Below are positions 17,698-27,019 of a DNA stretch of 64,000 nt, in pieces. The stretch is taken from contig NZ_CP037968.1 in assembly GCF_019633745.1 (NCBI RefSeq), positions 1,680,789 to 1,744,788 of the forward strand, in the 5' to 3' direction. The notes under the pieces are model-generated. The model had not been told where the DNA came from and ran no database searches. It was given only the letters and a program-made list of their open reading frames with translations. Source of the DNA: Methanofollis formosanus (GTDB lineage Archaea; Halobacteriota; Methanomicrobia; Methanomicrobiales; Methanofollaceae). Each line of letters begins with the position of its first letter. Position 1 is the stretch's first letter. The translations under genes and the position numbers were made by a program.

Positions 17698-18822
17698 TCA
17701 ACGGCCCTTGAGGGCGGCAACAAACCGTTCCCTGATCTCCTGAGGTGTTAAAGGGATGTTTTTGACCGGTGCGTTCCCCGGCCTGAGTACCACATGAATA
17801 AAATTCGGGCCGCCATCAACCGACGCGGCCATCACCCCCTCGAACGCTTCAGGGTGCTCGATCTTCCAGGTTCTCGTAAAGCCGCTGGCATGGGCGATGA
17901 GTTCGAGATCGAGGTCCGCGGCCGCATAGGTCGGTTGGTTTCCGGTGGAGCCAAAGGCCCCGTTGTCCAGACCGATCACCGTGAGGTTTTCCGGGGCGGC
18001 GGCGGCCACCACCGGGAGAACCGACGAGCCCAGGAGACTGCCGTCGCCGTCGAGGACGACCACCCGACGGTCGGTACCAAGGGCGAGCCCGAGGCCGATG
18101 GGCGTCGCCTGCGTGTACGAACCGAGCATATAGAAGTTGAGCGGGCGGTCCATGGCCGCATACAGTTCTTTGCTCGGGACACCGATGTTCGAGACGACGG
18201 CGGCGTCTCCCAGGTGGGAGGTCAGGGCCCTGATGGCGTCATATCGTGCCATCGTCGGTTCCCTGATCTCTCTGTCATAGAGGAGCGCCGAGTGCCGCGA
18301 GCGTGCCGGCGCGGCACGGGAGACCGCAGGGCATGCCTCGCCTTCCCACACCTTCGGCGAGATGAGGGCGACGTGCGGGCGGGAGCGGGCGAAGGCGTCC
18401 TCGACCACCTCGCCGATCCGCGGGAGGTCGGAGGGCTCGGAGATGATCGTATAGGCGATCCCGAGGGCGTCGAGCACCCCGGGGAGTTGACTGTTGAACG
18501 GGATCTGGGCCGGGATCCGTTCCTCGTAGACCCCGCGCCAGCTCGCGAGCACCGGGAGGGGGAGGCCAAAGGTGACGGTGAGCGACATGATCGCGTTGAG
18601 CATGTTCCCGAGACCCGAACTCTGGATGACCACCACCGGGCGCAGCCCGGCAAGCACCGCTCCGGCGGCGATCCCGACGCCGTCTTCCTCGCGGGTGAGG
18701 CCGACGGTCCGGATCCGATCGGGCAGGAGGAAGCAGAGATCCCTGGCACGGTCGCAGGGGAGGGTGAGGGTAAGGTCGACCCCGGCGTCTTCGAGGATCG
18801 TACAGACGAGATCTTCATGCAT
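17698..18822 (-). CDS. comDE: Sulfopyruvate decarboxylase, fused alpha and beta subunits
   Basis: 374 aa cytosolic enzyme that decarboxylates sulfopyruvate to sulfoacetaldehyde in coenzyme M synthesis. Residues 1-165 correspond to ComD (pyrimidine-binding half, with REEDGVGIAAGA carrying the catalytic Glu). Residues about 185-374 correspond to ComE (thiamine diphosphate half, with the motif GDGSLLGS followed by DNGAFGSTGNQ). In Methanocaldococcus the two are separate proteins; the fusion is a feature of Methanosarcinales and Methanomicrobiales. Last gene of a six-gene operon; its ATG overlaps the cysteate synthase stop by 8 bases. Repeat copies A and B follow its stop. Confidence 0.94.
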   Translation of the reverse strand: MHEDLVCTILEDAGVDLTLTLPCDRARDLCFLLPDRIRTVGLTREEDGVGIAAGAVLAGLRPVVVIQSSGLGNMLNAIMSLTVTFGLPLPVLASWRGVYEERIPAQIPFNSQLPGVLDALGIAYTIISEPSDLPRIGEVVEDAFARSRPHVALISPKVWEGEACPAVSRAAPARSRHSALLYDREIREPTMARYDAIRALTSHLGDAAVVSNIGVPSKELYAAMDRPLNFYMLGSYTQATPIGLGLALGTDRRVVVLDGDGSLLGSSVLPVVAAAAPENLTVIGLDNGAFGSTGNQPTYAAADLDLELIAHASGFTRTWKIEHPEAFEGVMAASVDGGPNFIHVVLRPGNAPVKNIPLTPQEIRERFVAALKGR

Positions 18823-20086
18823 GGTTTCTCACCCATGAGAGGACGTCGCCGGCAAGAGCGGCGGTCTCGACATCGGCGGAGACCCGGAACGCCGGTTCGA
18901 TCCGATACTGCTCGTGATCCTCGGCGACCCGCCGGTACCCGCCGCCGGTGAGATTGAGGAGCACGGCCTCGTCAGGGCCGACCGATCCGGTCTCGACGGC
19001 GTCGGCCAGGGCGGCGAGCGCGATCGCGGCCGCCGGATCAAGATCGATCCCCTCGGCCTCCTCGCACCAGCGCGCCGCCGCCTCCGCGGCAGGGTTGGTG
19101 ACCGCATGCATCGCCCCCCTGGTGGCCGTGAGGGCGTCGAAGACCCCGCCTCCGATCCCGTAAGGCGGCTTCCGGTTGGTCAGCACATCGGCGTAGACCA
19201 CGGCGACCGCCGTGCGGGCGTCGGGCATATCGATCGCCGGGACAATCTCCCGCCGCCCGGCCTCCCATGCCCTGACCATCGGGACGAAGGGGAGGTTCTG
19301 GGCAAGGTGGAGACGCGGGAGGACCGAGCCGAACCGGCCGTCTTCGACCAGTCGCATCGCCGCTTCCCACGCGGCGATCCCGCCGGTACCGCTCCCGACC
19401 GCCTGGAAGTAGCGGTCAGGCAGACGGCCGATGGTGACCGCCGCGTCGAGCATCACCGTACCCATCCCGTCCCGTCTCGCGACATTTCTGGCCCCCCCCT
19501 CGGGGAGAAGAGAAGGGTGGGTGCAGAGGGCGTCGGCGACGGCGATGGTGTCCGAGTAGTCGCCGTCCACCAGGACCATACAGACCTGATCGGTCTCGAT
19601 GGTCGTCCAGAGACGCGTGGCGGCCTTCTCTGGCACCACCACCACGACCTGTCCGCCGGTGGCGGCGACGGTCTGGCAGAAGGCGCGGCCGGTGTTCCCG
19701 GCCGAGGCCACGACCAGCGTGCCGTCACCGGTCTCTCTCACCCTGACCATCGTGGGCAGGGCTTCCAGTTCTTTGAACGAACAGGTGTGGATCTCGGCGC
19801 CCCGTTCCGGCCAGTAGCCGTTGAAACCGATATACAGGTTCTTGAGCCCGAGGTCACGGGCCAGGCCCTCGCTCCGGTAGGTCACCGGCCCGGCCGCGGC
19901 CTTAAGTGTTCCCTCGATCGGGAGCCAGTCGGCGAAACGGAATATTCCGAGTTCGTTCCTGAGATTCAGTTTTTTTCTCCGGTATCTGGCCCTGATCAGT
20001 GCGTCGCACCCCTGCGGACACGAAAGCGTGTACCGGTCTTCAAGGACCGCTCCGCACCCGGGACAGATGAGTTCATAGTGTCGCAT
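18815..20086 (-). CDS. Cysteate synthase (threonine-synthase-like, PLP-dependent)
   Basis: 423 aa from ATG 20086, preceded by GGTGAAAGG; an earlier in-frame ATG at 20146 would run into the upstream gene. It converts O-phosphoserine and sulfite to cysteate, the entry step of coenzyme M synthesis in these orders. N-terminal zinc-ribbon-like cysteines (CPGCGAVL and CPQGC), PLP-lysine region TCSFKELEALP, ASAGNTGRAF (substrate loop) and GSGTGGIAAWEA (phosphate-binding loop). It resembles threonine synthase, but the direct linkage to comDE makes cysteate synthase much the likelier assignment. Confidence 0.9.
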   Translation of the reverse strand: MRHYELICPGCGAVLEDRYTLSCPQGCDALIRARYRRKKLNLRNELGIFRFADWLPIEGTLKAAAGPVTYRSEGLARDLGLKNLYIGFNGYWPERGAEIHTCSFKELEALPTMVRVRETGDGTLVVASAGNTGRAFCQTVAATGGQVVVVVPEKAATRLWTTIETDQVCMVLVDGDYSDTIAVADALCTHPSLLPEGGARNVARRDGMGTVMLDAAVTIGRLPDRYFQAVGSGTGGIAAWEAAMRLVEDGRFGSVLPRLHLAQNLPFVPMVRAWEAGRREIVPAIDMPDARTAVAVVYADVLTNRKPPYGIGGGVFDALTATRGAMHAVTNPAAEAAARWCEEAEGIDLDPAAAIALAALADAVETGSVGPDEAVLLNLTGGGYRRVAEDHEQYRIEPAFRVSADVETAALAGDVLSWVRNHA

Positions 20087-20099
20087 TTTCCTTTCACCC

Positions 20100-21323
20100 C
20101 TATAATTCAAATGATCCGTCCAGGAGAGCGCCTTTGAGACGCACACAGAGTTTTTCAGCCTTCTTCCGGTCTGACTGCCGCATGGTGATCGGGACCGTCA
20201 GACCGGCGACGTCGAGGGTGCCGAGGTCGGCACGGACCGCGCCCCCCGTACAGGCAACCGCACAGGCCCCGCACGAGGCGCAGAGGCAGGGGTCGATCCC
20301 TTTTCCGGCGATAAAGGCGCCGGTCGGGCAGATCGCCGTTGCCCGGCATGGTTCGCAGAAGAGGCAGGACGAAGGATCATAGACCACCTCGTGATCGGTC
20401 CCCTTCCAGACCTCCGCGTAGGTGGTCCTCGTAAAGGGTCGCCGGTCCTTGATATCGGCGATCGGGAGGGCGACCTCCTCGTCCAGCACCGAGAGGGCGT
20501 CGATCGAGGCCTGGTCCAGCACCGGGATCGGGGCGGCGATGCTGGTGATGCACTCGGGGCCTGCGGCCGTGACAAAACCGCCGCAGGTGCAGGGGTCCAT
20601 CCCTTTCATCTCGGCAAAGACCGAGAGGTTCGGTTTTTCCGGTGTGCTCCTCGTCCCCTCGCCCATCACCAGACCGGGGGCCCCGTTCAGCAGCACCCGC
20701 GCGCCGGGCCCCAGCACCCTGAGCGCGGGGTCGTTCTCCACCGGACTGATCTCGCCGCACCCGCTGACCGAGGCCTCGGCACAGGAGCCCTTCAGGCCGG
20801 TCACCGAGAAGATCGTCTCTTCCGACGCAGCAGAGCAGTTTACAAAGGCGGTGTAGTTCTTGAAGGCGCCCCTGGTGGTAAAGAGGCGGTCGGTGCCGCA
20901 GTCGTCGAGGGTGACCTCGGCTTCATAGGTCCGCCCTCTCGCATCGACCTCCACATGGACCTCTTTCCCTGCCGCAAGGTCGGCAAAGAGGTGGCCGCCG
21001 CCATAGCGTGCCCCCAGATGGGCCGTGCCGTAGACGATCATATCGACGAGGCCGAGACGTTCGTTCGGGCAGGGGCCAGGATAGGCCGGAACCCCGTTGA
21101 GCCTCACCGCCTCGGCACGGCCGAAGGTGCCGGGCGGCGCGACCGGGACCGAGAGGAGGGCGGCGGTCCCCGACATCACCCCGCAGGTCCCGCAGGTGAC
21201 CACGTCCACGTCTCCGGGCCCCGGACGTTCCCCGTCTCTGACCCGTCTCTTGAACTCCGATGCAGTCAGGACGACGGCATTCCCATCCCTGACCCGTTCC
21301 CGGATCTCAGAGATCGTCTTCAT
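20100..21323 (-). CDS. DUF39 (COG1900) plus ferredoxin protein, methanogenesis marker 16 type
   Basis: 407 aa from ATG 21323, which overlaps the previous stop (ATGA). Residues 1-340 are a DUF39/HcyBio domain with a CxxC at residues 44-47 (TCGTCGVMSG) and PAYPGPCPNERLG. Residues about 345-395 are a two-cluster ferredoxin (CLFCEPCRATAICPTG, then CLCASCGACAVACTGG). Relatives of DUF39 convert aspartate semialdehyde to homocysteine, putting sulfide on an aldehyde carbon. Conversion of sulfoacetaldehyde to coenzyme M is the same chemistry, and the gene sits immediately before cysteate synthase and comDE. I infer a role in the last CoM step; this is not proven by sequence. Confidence 0.85.
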   Translation of the reverse strand: MKTISEIRERVRDGNAVVLTASEFKRRVRDGERPGPGDVDVVTCGTCGVMSGTAALLSVPVAPPGTFGRAEAVRLNGVPAYPGPCPNERLGLVDMIVYGTAHLGARYGGGHLFADLAAGKEVHVEVDARGRTYEAEVTLDDCGTDRLFTTRGAFKNYTAFVNCSAASEETIFSVTGLKGSCAEASVSGCGEISPVENDPALRVLGPGARVLLNGAPGLVMGEGTRSTPEKPNLSVFAEMKGMDPCTCGGFVTAAGPECITSIAAPIPVLDQASIDALSVLDEEVALPIADIKDRRPFTRTTYAEVWKGTDHEVVYDPSSCLFCEPCRATAICPTGAFIAGKGIDPCLCASCGACAVACTGGAVRADLGTLDVAGLTVPITMRQSDRKKAEKLCVRLKGALLDGSFEL

Positions 21324-21931
21324 ATGATGACGTCCTCCACCCGCACATGCAGCCCCTCTGGACGCTCCACGATCATATTGGTAACCCCGGTATGGGCAAG
21401 GGCCATCATGCAGAATCCGGGGAGGAAGCGCTGGCGCTTTCCGAAGACCGGAGGAGACGAGAGATGAGTGGCCATCCCCTCGAACCCGAGCATATGATAG
21501 GCCCTGAGATCGTGGTACTCCTGACCCCGCGAGAACTGCGGGCCGACGACATGACCGGTGATCACACCGGTGACCGGATCGGCCTCGATCACCCGGATCA
21601 CATGCTGGACCGGACACCCGGCACCCATCGGGCGGCCGACGACGATCTCGCCCTCCGCGATCTCCCACTTCTCAACCAGGTCGGGCCTGAAGGGAAGGAT
21701 GATCTTTCGGGCCGAGGGTTCGCCGGGGAGCGGGTCGATGATGAAGTCGTAGGTATTGCCGACGATGTCCCGCCCCGTATAGATCGCATCGGGGGCGGCG
21801 ATACATGCCTCACCCGCGGAGAAGGGGCAGTCGGCGAGAGACCGTTCCCCTGCGGCGACCATTTCCATGAACGCCTCGCAAGTCCGCGCCCCGCAGAGCC
21901 CGCAGTTTTTTCCGGGCGGTGTCCACCCCAT
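21320..21931 (-). CDS. Fe-S cluster protein with N-terminal four-cysteine domain
   Basis: 203 aa, ATG 21931 directly after the upstream TAG, with GGGGTGAT as ribosome site. Cys10, Cys13, Cys18 and Cys35 (KNCGLCGARTC ... ADCPFS) form the PF04060-type 4Fe-4S motif seen in corrinoid Fe-S proteins and related redox partners. The remaining 165 residues (with VVGRPMGAGCPVQHVIRVI and GHVVGPQFSRGQEYHDL) are conserved-looking but not a family whose activity I can name. Operon position suggests it delivers electrons, or a cluster, to the DUF39/ferredoxin protein encoded next. Confidence 0.82.
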   Translation of the reverse strand: MGWTPPGKNCGLCGARTCEAFMEMVAAGERSLADCPFSAGEACIAAPDAIYTGRDIVGNTYDFIIDPLPGEPSARKIILPFRPDLVEKWEIAEGEIVVGRPMGAGCPVQHVIRVIEADPVTGVITGHVVGPQFSRGQEYHDLRAYHMLGFEGMATHLSSPPVFGKRQRFLPGFCMMALAHTGVTNMIVERPEGLHVRVEDVII

Positions 21932-22639
21932 CTAATCACCCCGGAAGAGGGTGCCCGCGTCCCCGAGTCTCCTGACGACCCCAAAATGGTGCTGCCACCC
22001 GATCTCTTTCTTGCCGACGCAGACGGTGCAGACGCCGAGGGGCGGGACGCCGCGAAGTTCGACGGTGGCAGCGTCCTGCACCTCTTCGGCCTCTGCGATC
22101 CTCTGGAGCAGATAGCGCATGCCGGTTCCCTGTACGGCATTCGTCTCCACGATCTCGATCCCGGGCGCCACCTCCCTGATCCCCTCCCTGAAGACCTCCT
22201 TCTCGGCCTGGGAGACGAGGTCGATCCTGGTGACGACCGCCACGTCGGCGAGGGCGATCATCGGCCCCATCTTGAGGGGGGCGTGGGTGCCGGAGATGGC
22301 GCTGAGGACGACGATCCCGAGGGCCTGGGTGACGTACGGCGAACACCGGAGACAGAGGCCTGCGGACTCGACGATGAGGACGGACGCCTCTTCCTTCTCT
22401 GCCCACCTGAGGGCGTCGGCCATCACCATGATCCCGGCATGGTCGGGGCAGAGGTCGCCTGAGTAGACTTTCCGTGTCGGAATGCCGAACTCAGTTGCAA
22501 GTTCCTCGTCCTCGAAGGCCCGGACGACGTCGATCTTGAGGTAGGCCGCTGTCTCCCCGGTCCCGAGGTTCCTGAGAACCTGGCGGACGACCGCCGTCTT
22601 GCCGGCCGAAGGGGGTCCGGCAATAACGACCAGTTTCAT
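21932..22639 (-). CDS. SIMIBI-class GTPase (HypB/UreG-like) with C-terminal CxxC/HH motif
   Basis: 235 aa from ATG 22639, overlapping the upstream stop as ATGA. P-loop GPPSAGKT at residues 8-15, VLIVESAGLCLRCSPYV as the switch region and TRIDL as the guanine-specificity-type motif. This is the G3E/SIMIBI family whose members HypB, UreG and CobW help insert metals or activate enzymes. The C-terminus carries PPLGVCTVCVGKKEIGWQHH, a CxxC plus HisHis pair well placed to bind a metal. Client enzyme unknown; the DUF39/Fe-S proteins in the same operon are the obvious candidates. Confidence 0.83.
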   Translation of the reverse strand: MKLVVIAGPPSAGKTAVVRQVLRNLGTGETAAYLKIDVVRAFEDEELATEFGIPTRKVYSGDLCPDHAGIMVMADALRWAEKEEASVLIVESAGLCLRCSPYVTQALGIVVLSAISGTHAPLKMGPMIALADVAVVTRIDLVSQAEKEVFREGIREVAPGIEIVETNAVQGTGMRYLLQRIAEAEEVQDAATVELRGVPPLGVCTVCVGKKEIGWQHHFGVVRRLGDAGTLFRGD

Positions 22640-23415
22640 AGTGCCTGCACCCCGCCGGTGAGGGCCTCGCCGGCACGGATCCGCTCCCTGAGACGGCAGA
22701 GGATGCCGTCCATCTTTTTCACTACAGAGAGAGCCTCCTCTTCCTCGCCTGTGTGTTCGATGACCCTGACGACCGTCCCGTTCCGCATCACGACCCTTCG
22801 ATCGCACATCAGGGCGACGAGGGGGTCGTGGGTGACGAAGACCACCGCCTTCTGGTAGCGCCGGAGCACCTCGATCACCCGGTCCTTGAAGATCCCGGCA
22901 TTCTCGACCTCGTCGAGGATGATCACCGGCGTGCTTCCGACGAAGATCGCGTCCGCGACCATCAGGGATCTGGTCTGCCCGCCTGAGAGGGAGGTCATCC
23001 GCGCCTCAGGCATGATCTTCTCGCCGGTGAACTCGTTTGCAAGGGCGATCGTCTCGCTGATGATCTCGTCCCCTTCGATCTTTCGCGACCTGACATGCAT
23101 CTCAAGAAACTCCGCTACTTTGAGGTCGGCGAGGCATTTGGTGTTCTGGGTGATGAGGGCGATCGGTTTTTTCGCCGGGTCGCGTACATAATCGTCGGGA
23201 GGTATCGCTCCGTTGACGAGGACGGTCCGACCGGTGACGGTGTCGTCCCTGGCAAAGACTTCGATGTCGTTGATGAATGCACTCTTCCCCGATCCGGTCG
23301 GCCCGACGATCGCGAGGGTCTCCCCCGATCTGATCACGATCCGGTCGAAGTGCTCGGTCTCGCCGTTCTTGTCCTTCCCCGGGAGGACGGTGATCTCGGT
23401 GACCTGCAGATCCAT
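22636..23415 (-). CDS. Stand-alone ABC-type ATPase, first gene of the CoM operon
   Basis: 259 aa from ATG 23415 (MDLQVTEITVLPGKDKNGET). Walker A GPTGSGKS, Q-loop region LITQNTK, signature LSGGQTRSL and Walker B VIILDEVENAG (the usual DEP is DEV here), then FVTHDP. No permease gene is nearby, and the sequence is not a standard importer subunit. It may instead act as a soluble ABC ATPase, as AtwA does in methyl-coenzyme M reductase activation. Residues 15-30, before the P-loop, are short. No clear ribosome site precedes the ATG. Confidence 0.82.
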   Translation of the reverse strand: MDLQVTEITVLPGKDKNGETEHFDRIVIRSGETLAIVGPTGSGKSAFINDIEVFARDDTVTGRTVLVNGAIPPDDYVRDPAKKPIALITQNTKCLADLKVAEFLEMHVRSRKIEGDEIISETIALANEFTGEKIMPEARMTSLSGGQTRSLMVADAIFVGSTPVIILDEVENAGIFKDRVIEVLRRYQKAVVFVTHDPLVALMCDRRVVMRNGTVVRVIEHTGEEEEALSVVKKMDGILCRLRERIRAGEALTGGVQAL

Positions 23416-23623: not shown

Positions 23624-25336
23624 TCAGTGGTCAAAATGGAGGAAGACACGGCACCGCCCGTCTTCCTCTGCGCTCCGGGCGGTATCGGCGTACCGCCCGG
23701 CCATATACCACGCAAAGGCGGCAAAACCCCGGTCGTCTTCGAGCATCTCCTCCTCGGTCGGACGGGAGGATGGGAAGGCCATCGCCTGCCCGGTATAACT
23801 GAGGGCGAGGTCGAGGTTCAGTTCGTCGAAGGAAGCCGAGACCTCGACCGGTCCGTCGGTGAGGCACCCCATCGTGCCCTCCGCGATCTCGGTGGCGGCG
23901 GCGGCGGCGCGGACGACCACCTCCTCGCGGGCGCCCCACTCCTCCCCTTTACGCTGGAGGAAGGCCTCGATCTCCCTGGCCGCGGCCGACCCCGGTTCAA
24001 GCACGACGCTCTCCTCCTGCCTGATGCCGAACCTGAAGGCGAGGTTGAGCACGATGGCGGTGATGGTGGCCAGGGTGATCGAGGAGGCAAAGACCGGTTC
24101 GAAGATCGGGGGCACGTCCTCGAAGACGTACGGAACAAACTGGACCGAGAGACCAAAGACAAGGGAAATACCGATGACCAGCACCTTCCGGGTATCCATC
24201 ATCCTGGAGAGCATCGTCGTGATCCCCACCATGATCAGGAAAGCGCAGATGTAGATGACGACCGCACCGATGACATAGATCGGCACCAGGGAGAAGGCGG
24301 TCGTCGCCTTCGGGACAAAGGCGCAGACGACGAGTGCTCCCCCGAAGAGGAAACCGATGAATCGGCTTGTGATGCGGGAGGCGACCGAGATGCCGAGTTC
24401 CGACGATGCGGTGGAGACACCCGGCGATCCGATCGCGCCGGCAAAGACGTTCGTGAGTCCCATCGTGAAGATGCCGTCCCTGATGTTCTCCATGTCGGGC
24501 CTGACCCAGGCGGCGTCATTCACCCGCTGCCCGATCGTCACGTTGGTGATCGTCTGGATCGTCGTCGCGATCACGGCGATGAGAAAGATCGGAAGCAAAC
24601 GCAGGTCGAAGGACCACCCGAAGTACGAGATGTCGGGGGCCTGGAGGAGAGGGGCCACCATCACCCGGTCAAGGGCGTCGGCGGGGTACAGGCCGAGAAG
24701 ATAACTCGCACCAAGGCCGACGGCAAGGGCGACGATGATCGCGTTCGCTTCATATTTCTCGCCGAATCTGGGTGATATGACGAGGACCGTAAGGGTGAGG
24801 GCCGCTACACCGACTCCCGCAGGGACCATCCCGACCGCGCTTGCCTCGCCGGTCATCCCGAGAAAACTCTGTATCCCGAAGGGAATCAGAGAGAAACCGA
24901 GGACGGTGATGACCATTCCCATCACCTCGGGCGGGAAGAGGACACGCAGTTCCCTGACGACTCGCGAGAGACCCATCTGGAGAAGACCGGCGACGGCGGT
25001 CATTCCGAACGCAAGGGCGAGGCCCCCGGCCTGGGCGGCGTGGAGGGTCGCCACCAGGAAGGACTCGTCGCAGGCGTTCGGCATCAGGTAACCGCACCCG
25101 ATACCGCGCCTCCGGAGGGCCTGAAGGGCGGTGCCCACCCCCTCGGCGATGAGGAGGGACGAGAGGAGAGCGGCCGTCATCTCGGGCGGGCCCCCGATAG
25201 CCGCGACGATGATGATCGGGATCATCAGGGAGAGAGCGACGTGCTGGACCACGAACTGGAGGGTGAAAGGCACCGCCACCGAGGCGGGCGGGCGTTCGTC
25301 GACGCTGTACACAAGGTCTTCAGGTCGCCTGCTCAT
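23624..25336 (-). CDS. NCS2 family nucleobase permease with C-terminal soluble domain
   Basis: 570 aa, ATG preceded by GGGAGGCG. Residues about 15-440 are the 14-segment xanthine/uracil permease fold (PFTLQFVVQHVALSLMIPIII at the start; GSPGVSTASSELGISVASR in the conserved NCS2 region). Residues about 445-570 form a cytoplasmic domain unusual for NCS2 carriers: REIEAFLQRKGEEWGAREEV, VEVSASFDELNLDLALSY and the end RVFLHFDH. The pattern is weakly like anti-sigma/HATPase folds. It imports purines or uracil; substrate unknown. Paired with a second NCS2 gene 39 bases upstream, likely one operon. Confidence 0.88.
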   Translation of the reverse strand: MSRRPEDLVYSVDERPPASVAVPFTLQFVVQHVALSLMIPIIIVAAIGGPPEMTAALLSSLLIAEGVGTALQALRRRGIGCGYLMPNACDESFLVATLHAAQAGGLALAFGMTAVAGLLQMGLSRVVRELRVLFPPEVMGMVITVLGFSLIPFGIQSFLGMTGEASAVGMVPAGVGVAALTLTVLVISPRFGEKYEANAIIVALAVGLGASYLLGLYPADALDRVMVAPLLQAPDISYFGWSFDLRLLPIFLIAVIATTIQTITNVTIGQRVNDAAWVRPDMENIRDGIFTMGLTNVFAGAIGSPGVSTASSELGISVASRITSRFIGFLFGGALVVCAFVPKATTAFSLVPIYVIGAVVIYICAFLIMVGITTMLSRMMDTRKVLVIGISLVFGLSVQFVPYVFEDVPPIFEPVFASSITLATITAIVLNLAFRFGIRQEESVVLEPGSAAAREIEAFLQRKGEEWGAREEVVVRAAAAATEIAEGTMGCLTDGPVEVSASFDELNLDLALSYTGQAMAFPSSRPTEEEMLEDDRGFAAFAWYMAGRYADTARSAEEDGRCRVFLHFDH

Positions 25337-25375
25337 CGTTCGCCTCCCTGTTCTGTCATCTCCATCTCCTCTTTC

Positions 25376-27019
25376 CTACTGGTCGAAGTGCAGGTGGAGC
25401 GTGCACCTGCACGAAAGATCGCTTTCATCGGCCATCCTGCCGGCACCGGTCGTCAGCCGCCCCCTCTCGCCGGACCGCCGCGTGAGGTACGAGACGAAGA
25501 TCTCCAGATTGAACTCGTCGAAACGCATGATCACCCGCACCGGGTCTTCCGTCAGTCCCTGGGTCTCGATGTCCTTGATACAGGTCTGCACTGCCCTGAC
25601 CGCCCGGGAAAAAACCTCTTTGCGTGCCCCCCATACCCTGGCCGCCCTCATCATCGCGTGGTTTACGTCGGCAGGCGAAGCGACCGCCGGGTCATGGAAG
25701 AACTCCACCGTGTCCTTTACCCCCACCTGGTACAGGGCATTGAGGAGGATCGCAAGGAGCGCGGCGACGGTGAGAGAGATCCCAAAGGTCTGGGATAAGA
25801 GGTCATTCATCCCGACGATTTTGTCAGAGACCAGATCGATCCCGACGCCGATCGCCAGCGGGACGCCGATGACCAAGGAACGCCTGGAGTCAAGCATGCG
25901 CGAGGAGATGATCGCAAGCCCTGAGACGATGATGAAGGAGACTGCAAAGAGGGAGATGGCGGCAAGGACGGATGGCGGCAGAGAGGTCATGAGCCTGACG
26001 AGGAGGGGCGAGCACCCGATGAGGATGAGAAGGACGCCGGTGACGACTCCGATGATCCGGGAGAAGGCCCCGTTCGCGATCGAGACCCCAACGGCCGCGG
26101 GCGACGCCCCGACACCGGCACCGCCGATCAGGCCGGAAAAGGTGGTGGCAAGGCCGGTGACGAGCACGCCCTTCTCGATGTTCTCGAAGTCCGGCCGCTG
26201 CCATTCCTGGTTAGTGCTCACCTGGCAGAGGGTGAAGGTGCCGAGGTCGTTGAAGACAGTGCAGAACCCGGCGACAAGGAAGGGCAGGAGGAGCGCGGCG
26301 TCGAAGGACCAGCCGATCTGAGTAGGGTCAGGAAAGGCAAAGAGAGGGGCGGCGGCGATTTCAGCGATCTCGGCCGGACCGAAGGCGCCGGTGGCGGCGG
26401 CGATGAACCAGCCAGCACAGATGCCGAGCATGATCCCGGCGGTCCTGAGCATCCCCCTTCCATAGACATAGACCATGACGAGAAAACCGAGGAGGAGGAC
26501 GCTTGTGACGACCGAGGCGATGTCGGTGCCGGAGCCGGCACCGTACTTCCCCATGAACGCGGGCATGATATGGCTGATGAGCATGATGCCGAGCATGAGG
26601 AGGATCATCCCGGCGATCTCGACCGGGAAGTACCTCCTGAGACGGGAGATGTACCGCGAGAACCCGACCTGGACGAGACCGGTCACCGCCGTCATGCCGA
26701 AAAGGAGTGAGAGGCCGCCCGTCTTGACCGCGAGGACCATCGGCCCGAGGTATGCGGCCGAAAGGGTGTACGGCACAAGGTACCGGACGCCGGCCCCCCG
26801 GTACCCGACGGCATTCACGATCGTCGCCGCACCCGCGGCGATCGCGATGCCGCCGATCAGGACGAGAAGGTCGTTAACCTCGATACCCGCGACGCTGGCA
26901 AGGGCGGTGACGATCTGAAGGCCGATCACGAAGAGGAAGAGGTGCTGGACGGCGAGCACCAGCGTGACGGACCATGGTGGACGGTCGTCTGATCGGTATA
27001 CCAGGTCCGGCAGTTTCAC
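25376..27019 (-). CDS. NCS2 family nucleobase permease, paralogue with the same C-terminal domain
   Basis: 547 aa, GTG start giving (M)KLPDLVYRSDDRPPWSV, which parallels the start of the neighbouring permease (DLVYSVDERPP). Membrane domain residues about 15-420, with GGAGVGASPAAVGVSIANG in the substrate region. Residues about 425-547 hold the same kind of cytoplasmic domain as the neighbour (ARVWGARKEVFSRAVRAVQ, VRVIMRFDEFNLEIFVSYL, ending LHLHFDQ). The two proteins may form a heteromer or differ in substrate. Upstream 112 bases contain AT-rich sequence suitable for a promoter; the ribosome site is weak. Confidence 0.88.
   Translation of the reverse strand: MKLPDLVYRSDDRPPWSVTLVLAVQHLFLFVIGLQIVTALASVAGIEVNDLLVLIGGIAIAAGAATIVNAVGYRGAGVRYLVPYTLSAAYLGPMVLAVKTGGLSLLFGMTAVTGLVQVGFSRYISRLRRYFPVEIAGMILLMLGIMLISHIMPAFMGKYGAGSGTDIASVVTSVLLLGFLVMVYVYGRGMLRTAGIMLGICAGWFIAAATGAFGPAEIAEIAAAPLFAFPDPTQIGWSFDAALLLPFLVAGFCTVFNDLGTFTLCQVSTNQEWQRPDFENIEKGVLVTGLATTFSGLIGGAGVGASPAAVGVSIANGAFSRIIGVVTGVLLILIGCSPLLVRLMTSLPPSVLAAISLFAVSFIIVSGLAIISSRMLDSRRSLVIGVPLAIGVGIDLVSDKIVGMNDLLSQTFGISLTVAALLAILLNALYQVGVKDTVEFFHDPAVASPADVNHAMMRAARVWGARKEVFSRAVRAVQTCIKDIETQGLTEDPVRVIMRFDEFNLEIFVSYLTRRSGERGRLTTGAGRMADESDLSCRCTLHLHFDQ

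Follow-up and report, generated by a model that had tools for sequence, protein, structure and literature searches.

Six open reading frames (ORFs) lie on the minus strand between positions 17698 and 23415 of the window, the 64,000-nt stretch of the Methanofollis formosanus genome analysed here, and neighbouring ORFs overlap or nearly abut (Table 1). They are transcribed in the order ABC ATPase, GTPase, Fe-S protein, DUF39/ferredoxin protein, cysteate synthase and ComDE, an arrangement that the first-pass annotation of the sequence had described and that our ORF and family searches confirmed. Its identification of the last two genes as cysteate synthase and ComDE also holds, with TIGR03844, TIGR03845 and TIGR03846 all scoring over their cut-offs. 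The GTG listed as the start of cysteate synthase (20146) appears too early; the likely start is the ATG at 20086, which has a purine-rich stretch ahead of it. Since the same genes occur together in dozens of methanogen loci, their grouping is far from chance. Upstream of the operon, the window carries two tandem NCS2 xanthine/uracil-type permeases (23624–27019), each with a C-terminal extension.

Table 1. Genes of the coenzyme M (CoM) operon in the window, with the family matches on which their naming rests.
Feature	Position	Strand	Family match
comDE, fused sulfopyruvate decarboxylase (alpha + beta)	17698..18822	-	TIGR03845 202.8 bits (cut-off 147.95); TIGR03846 231.2 bits (cut-off 221.5)
Cysteate synthase (phosphoserine + sulfite to cysteate)	18815..20086	-	TIGR03844 634.9 bits (cut-off 324.9)
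comF / methanogenesis marker 16	20100..21332	-	TIGR03287 520.4 bits (cut-off 363.95); PF01837 322.5 bits
COG2000 Fe-S protein	21320..21931	-	PF04060 only
HypB/UreG-like SIMIBI GTPase	21932..22639	-	PF02492 48.2 bits (cut-off 20.7)
Soluble ABC-type ATPase	22636..23415	-	PF00005 51.6 bits

The operon belongs to the Type 2 CoM pathway, as cysteate synthase and ComDE are present and the genome contains no ComA. The DUF39 protein combines a COG1900 (DUF39, HcyBio) domain, for which PF01837 is over its cut-off, with a C-terminal ferredoxin domain in which two four-Cys ferredoxin motifs are readable, Fer4_7 itself scoring under its cut-off. It is an ordinary member of the ComF/methanogenesis marker 16 family (TIGR03287, COG1900d): it exceeds the family cut-off, shares the COG1900-plus-ferredoxin architecture and has the same neighbours (cysteate synthase and ComDE), and we found no difference. 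Taking its function from these relatives (PMC12068725), we predict that it is the CoM synthase. The first-pass annotation rightly proposed the DUF39 protein as the last CoM enzyme. It held this step to be unassigned in Archaea; the assignment was already in print, in White 2019 (as cited in PMC12068725) and in Chadwick et al. 2025 (PMC12068725), who report that deletion of marker 16 (MMP16) gives a CoM-dependent phenotype. According to work cited in PMC12068725, E. coli with plasmid-borne MJ1681 converts sulfoacetaldehyde to CoM. Both the operon and the identity of ComF, the core of the finding, are published. Together, cysteate synthase, ComDE and ComF would turn phosphoserine, sulfite and a second sulfur into CoM, ComF taking the known last, aldehyde-to-thiol step. 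The genome (2.97 Mb, one contig) has another PF01837 protein, encoded at 486 kb, whose TIGR03287 score is far under the marker-16 cut-off, as would be expected of the homocysteine enzyme.

The other three genes, encoding the ABC ATPase, the HypB-like GTPase and the COG2000 protein, are referred to below as the cassette. Chadwick et al. 2025 (PMC12068725, Fig 2B legend) describe frequent colocalisation of CoM genes with an ATPase, a GTPase of the Ni type and a COG2000 Fe-S protein, the trio that also stands beside the CoM genes in the window. Our literature search found no study that tested any cassette gene biochemically or genetically, and a text search for COG2000 gave a single relevant paper. 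In the ABC ATPase alignment, the Walker A, LSGGQ signature, Walker B DE and H-loop THD motifs are all conserved, and the operon encodes no permease. The protein is very unlikely to be part of a CoM or sulfonate transporter: an NMT1-like binding protein does adjoin the cassette in some Methanoregula-type loci, but this neighbour is limited to a few lineages, no conserved permease neighbour was found among the loci examined, and the GTPase and COG2000 partners are soluble.

The GTPase belongs to the HypB/UreG/CobW superfamily (PF02492) and shares its G-domain, Cys/His motifs and homology to solved structures with the nickel-insertion GTPases HypB and UreG; its CPDH, CxRCxPY and CxxC motifs are invariant in our alignment. 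However, it falls below the cut-offs of both families (61.8 bits against 121.2 for HypB, TIGR00073), carries an extra C-terminal CxxC and is partnered by COG2000 rather than by a hydrogenase or urease. A second GTPase-ABC pair, related to that of the cassette, occurs elsewhere in some methanogens (L163–L167, in genomes G080, G060, G016, G028 and G046), next to a gene for a DUF1858 plus SBP_bac_6 protein or another binding protein in several loci (the one tested carries DUF1858), after mtr-like genes in L166 and beside an iron/cobalamin-type transporter in L165. The GTPase-ABC pair may therefore be a reusable activation module.

Across 93 COG2000 sequences, nine residues are invariant: C10, C13, C18 and C35 in a [4Fe-4S] domain of the type found in the corrinoid Fe-S protein (CFeSP), and C106, H110, C174, H180 and E199 in a beta-domain. 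In the AlphaFold2 model (pLDDT 91.9), the N-terminal 33 residues match CFeSP with an rmsd of 0.6–0.8 Å and 48–52% identity. COG2000 thus has this domain type in common with the CFeSP gamma subunit and RnfB, but only this N-terminal part matches the gamma subunit; the corrinoid-binding domain is absent, and the remainder is the beta-domain, for which a fold search of the PDB gave no match at E ≤ 0.001 and a PDB sequence search likewise recovered only the Fe-S domain. With Pfam at E values up to 1, PF04060 was the single family found in all 93 members, and none covered the beta-domain. Because the predicted structure places both the C106/H110 and C174/H180 pairs in loops that lead into strands, the model suggests that they form a shared metal site.

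We searched 100 genomes of the window's phylum, a survey set apart from Methanobacteriales and Methanococcales, for COG2000, the GTPase, marker 16, McrA, cysteate synthase and ComA. Full-length COG2000 and the matching GTPase occur in the same 25 genomes, all of which have cysteate synthase, 23 of which have ComF over the cut-off and none of which has ComA; conversely, the cassette is found in 0 of 10 ComA genomes. Cysteate synthase itself is present in 42 genomes, and 17 of these are without the cassette, so the cassette is not required. ComF is present in 48 genomes, 25 of them without the cassette. In genomes with MCR, the cassette tends to accompany cysteate synthase (Fisher p = 3e-6), and its link to ComF is only weak (p = 0.055); within cysteate-synthase genomes no ComF association is added (p = 1.0). 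All three values ignore kinship. Turning to the discordant genomes, we found the cassette in 2 of 3 with cysteate synthase but no ComF, and in 0 of 9 with ComF but no cysteate synthase. One of the two cassette genomes without detected ComF is complete (G046) and has the cassette adjoining cysteate synthase and ComDE; the other (G033) is a fragmented assembly. Siroheme sulfite reductases (PF01077), considered as a complement of the cassette, occur in most genomes with and without it, in no pattern. The M. acetivorans genes MA3300–MA3302 were considered as a cassette and rejected, as MA3302 is the regulator mreA.

The survey also turned up several unusual gene contents. Two methanogen genomes, G018 and G033, encode cysteate synthase together with ComDE yet no protein that passes the ComF cut-off; G022, G029 and G036, which lack McrA, encode full-length cysteate-synthase-like proteins of 251–288 bits (cut-off 325); and in G020 the cysteate synthase frame is split into two that overlap, which could reflect a disrupted gene or an error in the sequence. 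A literature search on the CoM growth requirement of Methanoregula boonei found no paper.

The first-pass annotation had read the four upstream genes as the terminal synthase plus its maturation or energy system, of which the DUF39 synthase stands and the role of the other three as its helpers is not supported. Some arrangements do favour a cassette that matures or powers ComF: it directly adjoins ComF in Methanomicrobiales, adjoins ComF and not cysteate synthase in the Methanosarcina loci L111 and L114 and in ANME-1 (L072), and ComF carries ferredoxin-type Fe-S motifs. Yet more than half of the ComF genomes manage without the cassette, it persists in the two genomes in which ComF was not detected, it is missing from every ComF genome that lacks cysteate synthase, and it occurs in Bacteria not expected to make CoM; the MJ1681 plasmid, as cited in PMC12068725, yields CoM in E. 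coli. We consider this reading unlikely, and it is very probable that the cassette is not specific to ComF. In 29 of the 38 archaeal loci, cysteate synthase lies no more than 1.3 kb from the cassette, the side varying with lineage.

Scanning GTDB genomes with a COG2000 alignment revealed full-length relatives in many bacterial phyla, accompanied by the GTPase and ABC genes in nearly every locus. In many bacteria the three genes stand beside other sulfur genes, which speaks against the idea that they are CoM-specific helpers. A large bacterial group has the order Rrf2 regulator, ABC, GTPase, cysteine desulfurase, COG2000, and several of its loci also have CysK/CBS and MetY close by. Within 2.5 kb of the cassette in 56 mostly bacterial loci, we counted cysteine desulfurase in 19 (mostly between GTPase and COG2000), the Rrf2 regulator in 14, MetY in 5, CysK/CBS in 4 and ComA in 3; one further locus, L228, from the Bacillota survey described below, is flanked by MetY and CysK genes. 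A Methanocella-type archaeal locus reads ABC, GTPase, IscS, COG2000, with SufBC, IscU and ThiF near. The common thread of these contexts is inorganic sulfur.

Bacterial cassette operons share an Rrf2 regulator, a cysteine desulfurase and an ABC ATPase with ISC and SUF operons, but contain a HypB-like GTPase and COG2000 in place of IscU or SufB; the window operon has no cysteine desulfurase, and the cassette no known scaffold. The cassette could alternatively assemble Fe-S or metal clusters for several Fe-S enzymes, COG2000 acting as scaffold or carrier. This reading would suit the IscS and Rrf2/IscR-like bacterial neighbours, the SufBC and IscU genes near the Methanocella-type cassette and the HypB-like GTPase. 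It is nevertheless rather doubtful, as IscS and Rrf2 also serve sulfur metabolism in general, none of CysK/CBS, MetY, ComA and cysteate synthase is an Fe-S enzyme, and separate SUF or ISC genes are also present in the loci where these are visible.

Among the scanned loci, L084 and L097 lie on contigs titled Nanohalarchaeota and Bacilli and have methanogen-like CoM operons; these contigs are probably mis-binned. An NMT1-like binding protein gene lies near the cassette in L070, L109, L112 and L073 (Methanoregula- and Methanocella-type loci).

Peptococcaceae-type loci have ComA immediately upstream of the ABC gene in three cases and within 7 kb in two others. ComA joins sulfite to phosphoenolpyruvate. 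In a set of 149 Bacillota genomes chosen around a Peptococcaceae genome, 15 encode full-length COG2000, and ComA is present in 14 of these compared to 44 of the 134 others (Fisher p = 6.5e-6, kinship ignored), a result that spore formation may confound. When we considered the 47 genomes reached through loci, ComA was found in 9 of the 11 Bacillota of that branch and in just 5 of the 36 others; ComA is therefore not a general partner of the cassette.

In an unrooted tree of the three joined cassette proteins, the Methanomicrobiales-type CoM-operon cassettes are placed next to those of Bacillota, far from the Methanosarcinaceae/Methanotrichaceae type. A single clade of all archaeal CoM-operon cassettes was rejected (p-AU 0.009, tested on 36 rows), and the two types lie on opposite sides of cysteate synthase. 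CoM operons hence contain two separate cassette lineages: either the cassette entered these operons twice, or Bacillota lost an older link to sulfonate synthesis or exchanged it for ComA.

We propose, with a probability of roughly 60%, that the cassette is a general, portable inorganic-sulfur module that has been recruited beside sulfonate-making enzymes, and that it more likely feeds the sulfite end than matures ComF. COG2000 would be the working protein, in which a low-potential [4Fe-4S] domain sits beside a beta-domain whose conserved Cys2His2 set could hold one metal, and the HypB-like GTPase and ABC ATPase would load or activate it. The module would handle inorganic sulfur, as sulfide or, where a cysteine desulfurase is present, persulfide, and pass it to enzymes that form C-S bonds. 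In CoM operons, we infer that the client is more likely cysteate synthase, the sulfite-using front end, than ComF. That the cassette handles sulfur is probable; that it serves sulfite supply or use is tentative and less probable than not. Three observations favour the sulfite end: the cassette is nested in cysteate-synthase genomes, it is kept where ComF was not detected, and in Bacillota it goes with ComA. Against it, ComA-type genomes in Archaea need sulfite too and yet have no cassette, the genes near bacterial cassettes use sulfide or cysteine and not clearly sulfite, the cassette stands beside ComF alone in Methanosarcina and ANME-1, and 31 of 36 cassette bacteria outside the Bacillota branch have no ComA.

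A redox role on sulfite or sulfide is a candidate function drawn from genomic association. In its most specific form, which we regard as a long shot, COG2000 would be a siroheme-free metalloenzyme, loaded by the GTPase and activated by the ABC ATPase, converting sulfide (or persulfide) to sulfite and back. If so, methanogens would draw on it for the sulfite that cysteate synthase uses and Bacillota for that used by ComA, and in other bacteria the reaction would go in the sulfide direction to supply CysK and MetY. Such an enzyme would also explain where strict anaerobes obtain the sulfite for CoM, whose in situ source one paper (PMC6286981) describes as unclear, suggesting a siroheme reductase working in reverse as one option. 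The main text of Chadwick et al. 2025 (PMC12068725) treats the three genes as CoM neighbours only, whereas our analysis follows them across Bacteria with other sulfur genes and so ties these unexplained neighbours to a wider bacterial system, an ATP/GTP-linked, metal-type module found in many phyla and, in most loci with readable context, among sulfur genes. For methanogens, this makes the cassette a testable candidate for sulfite supply.
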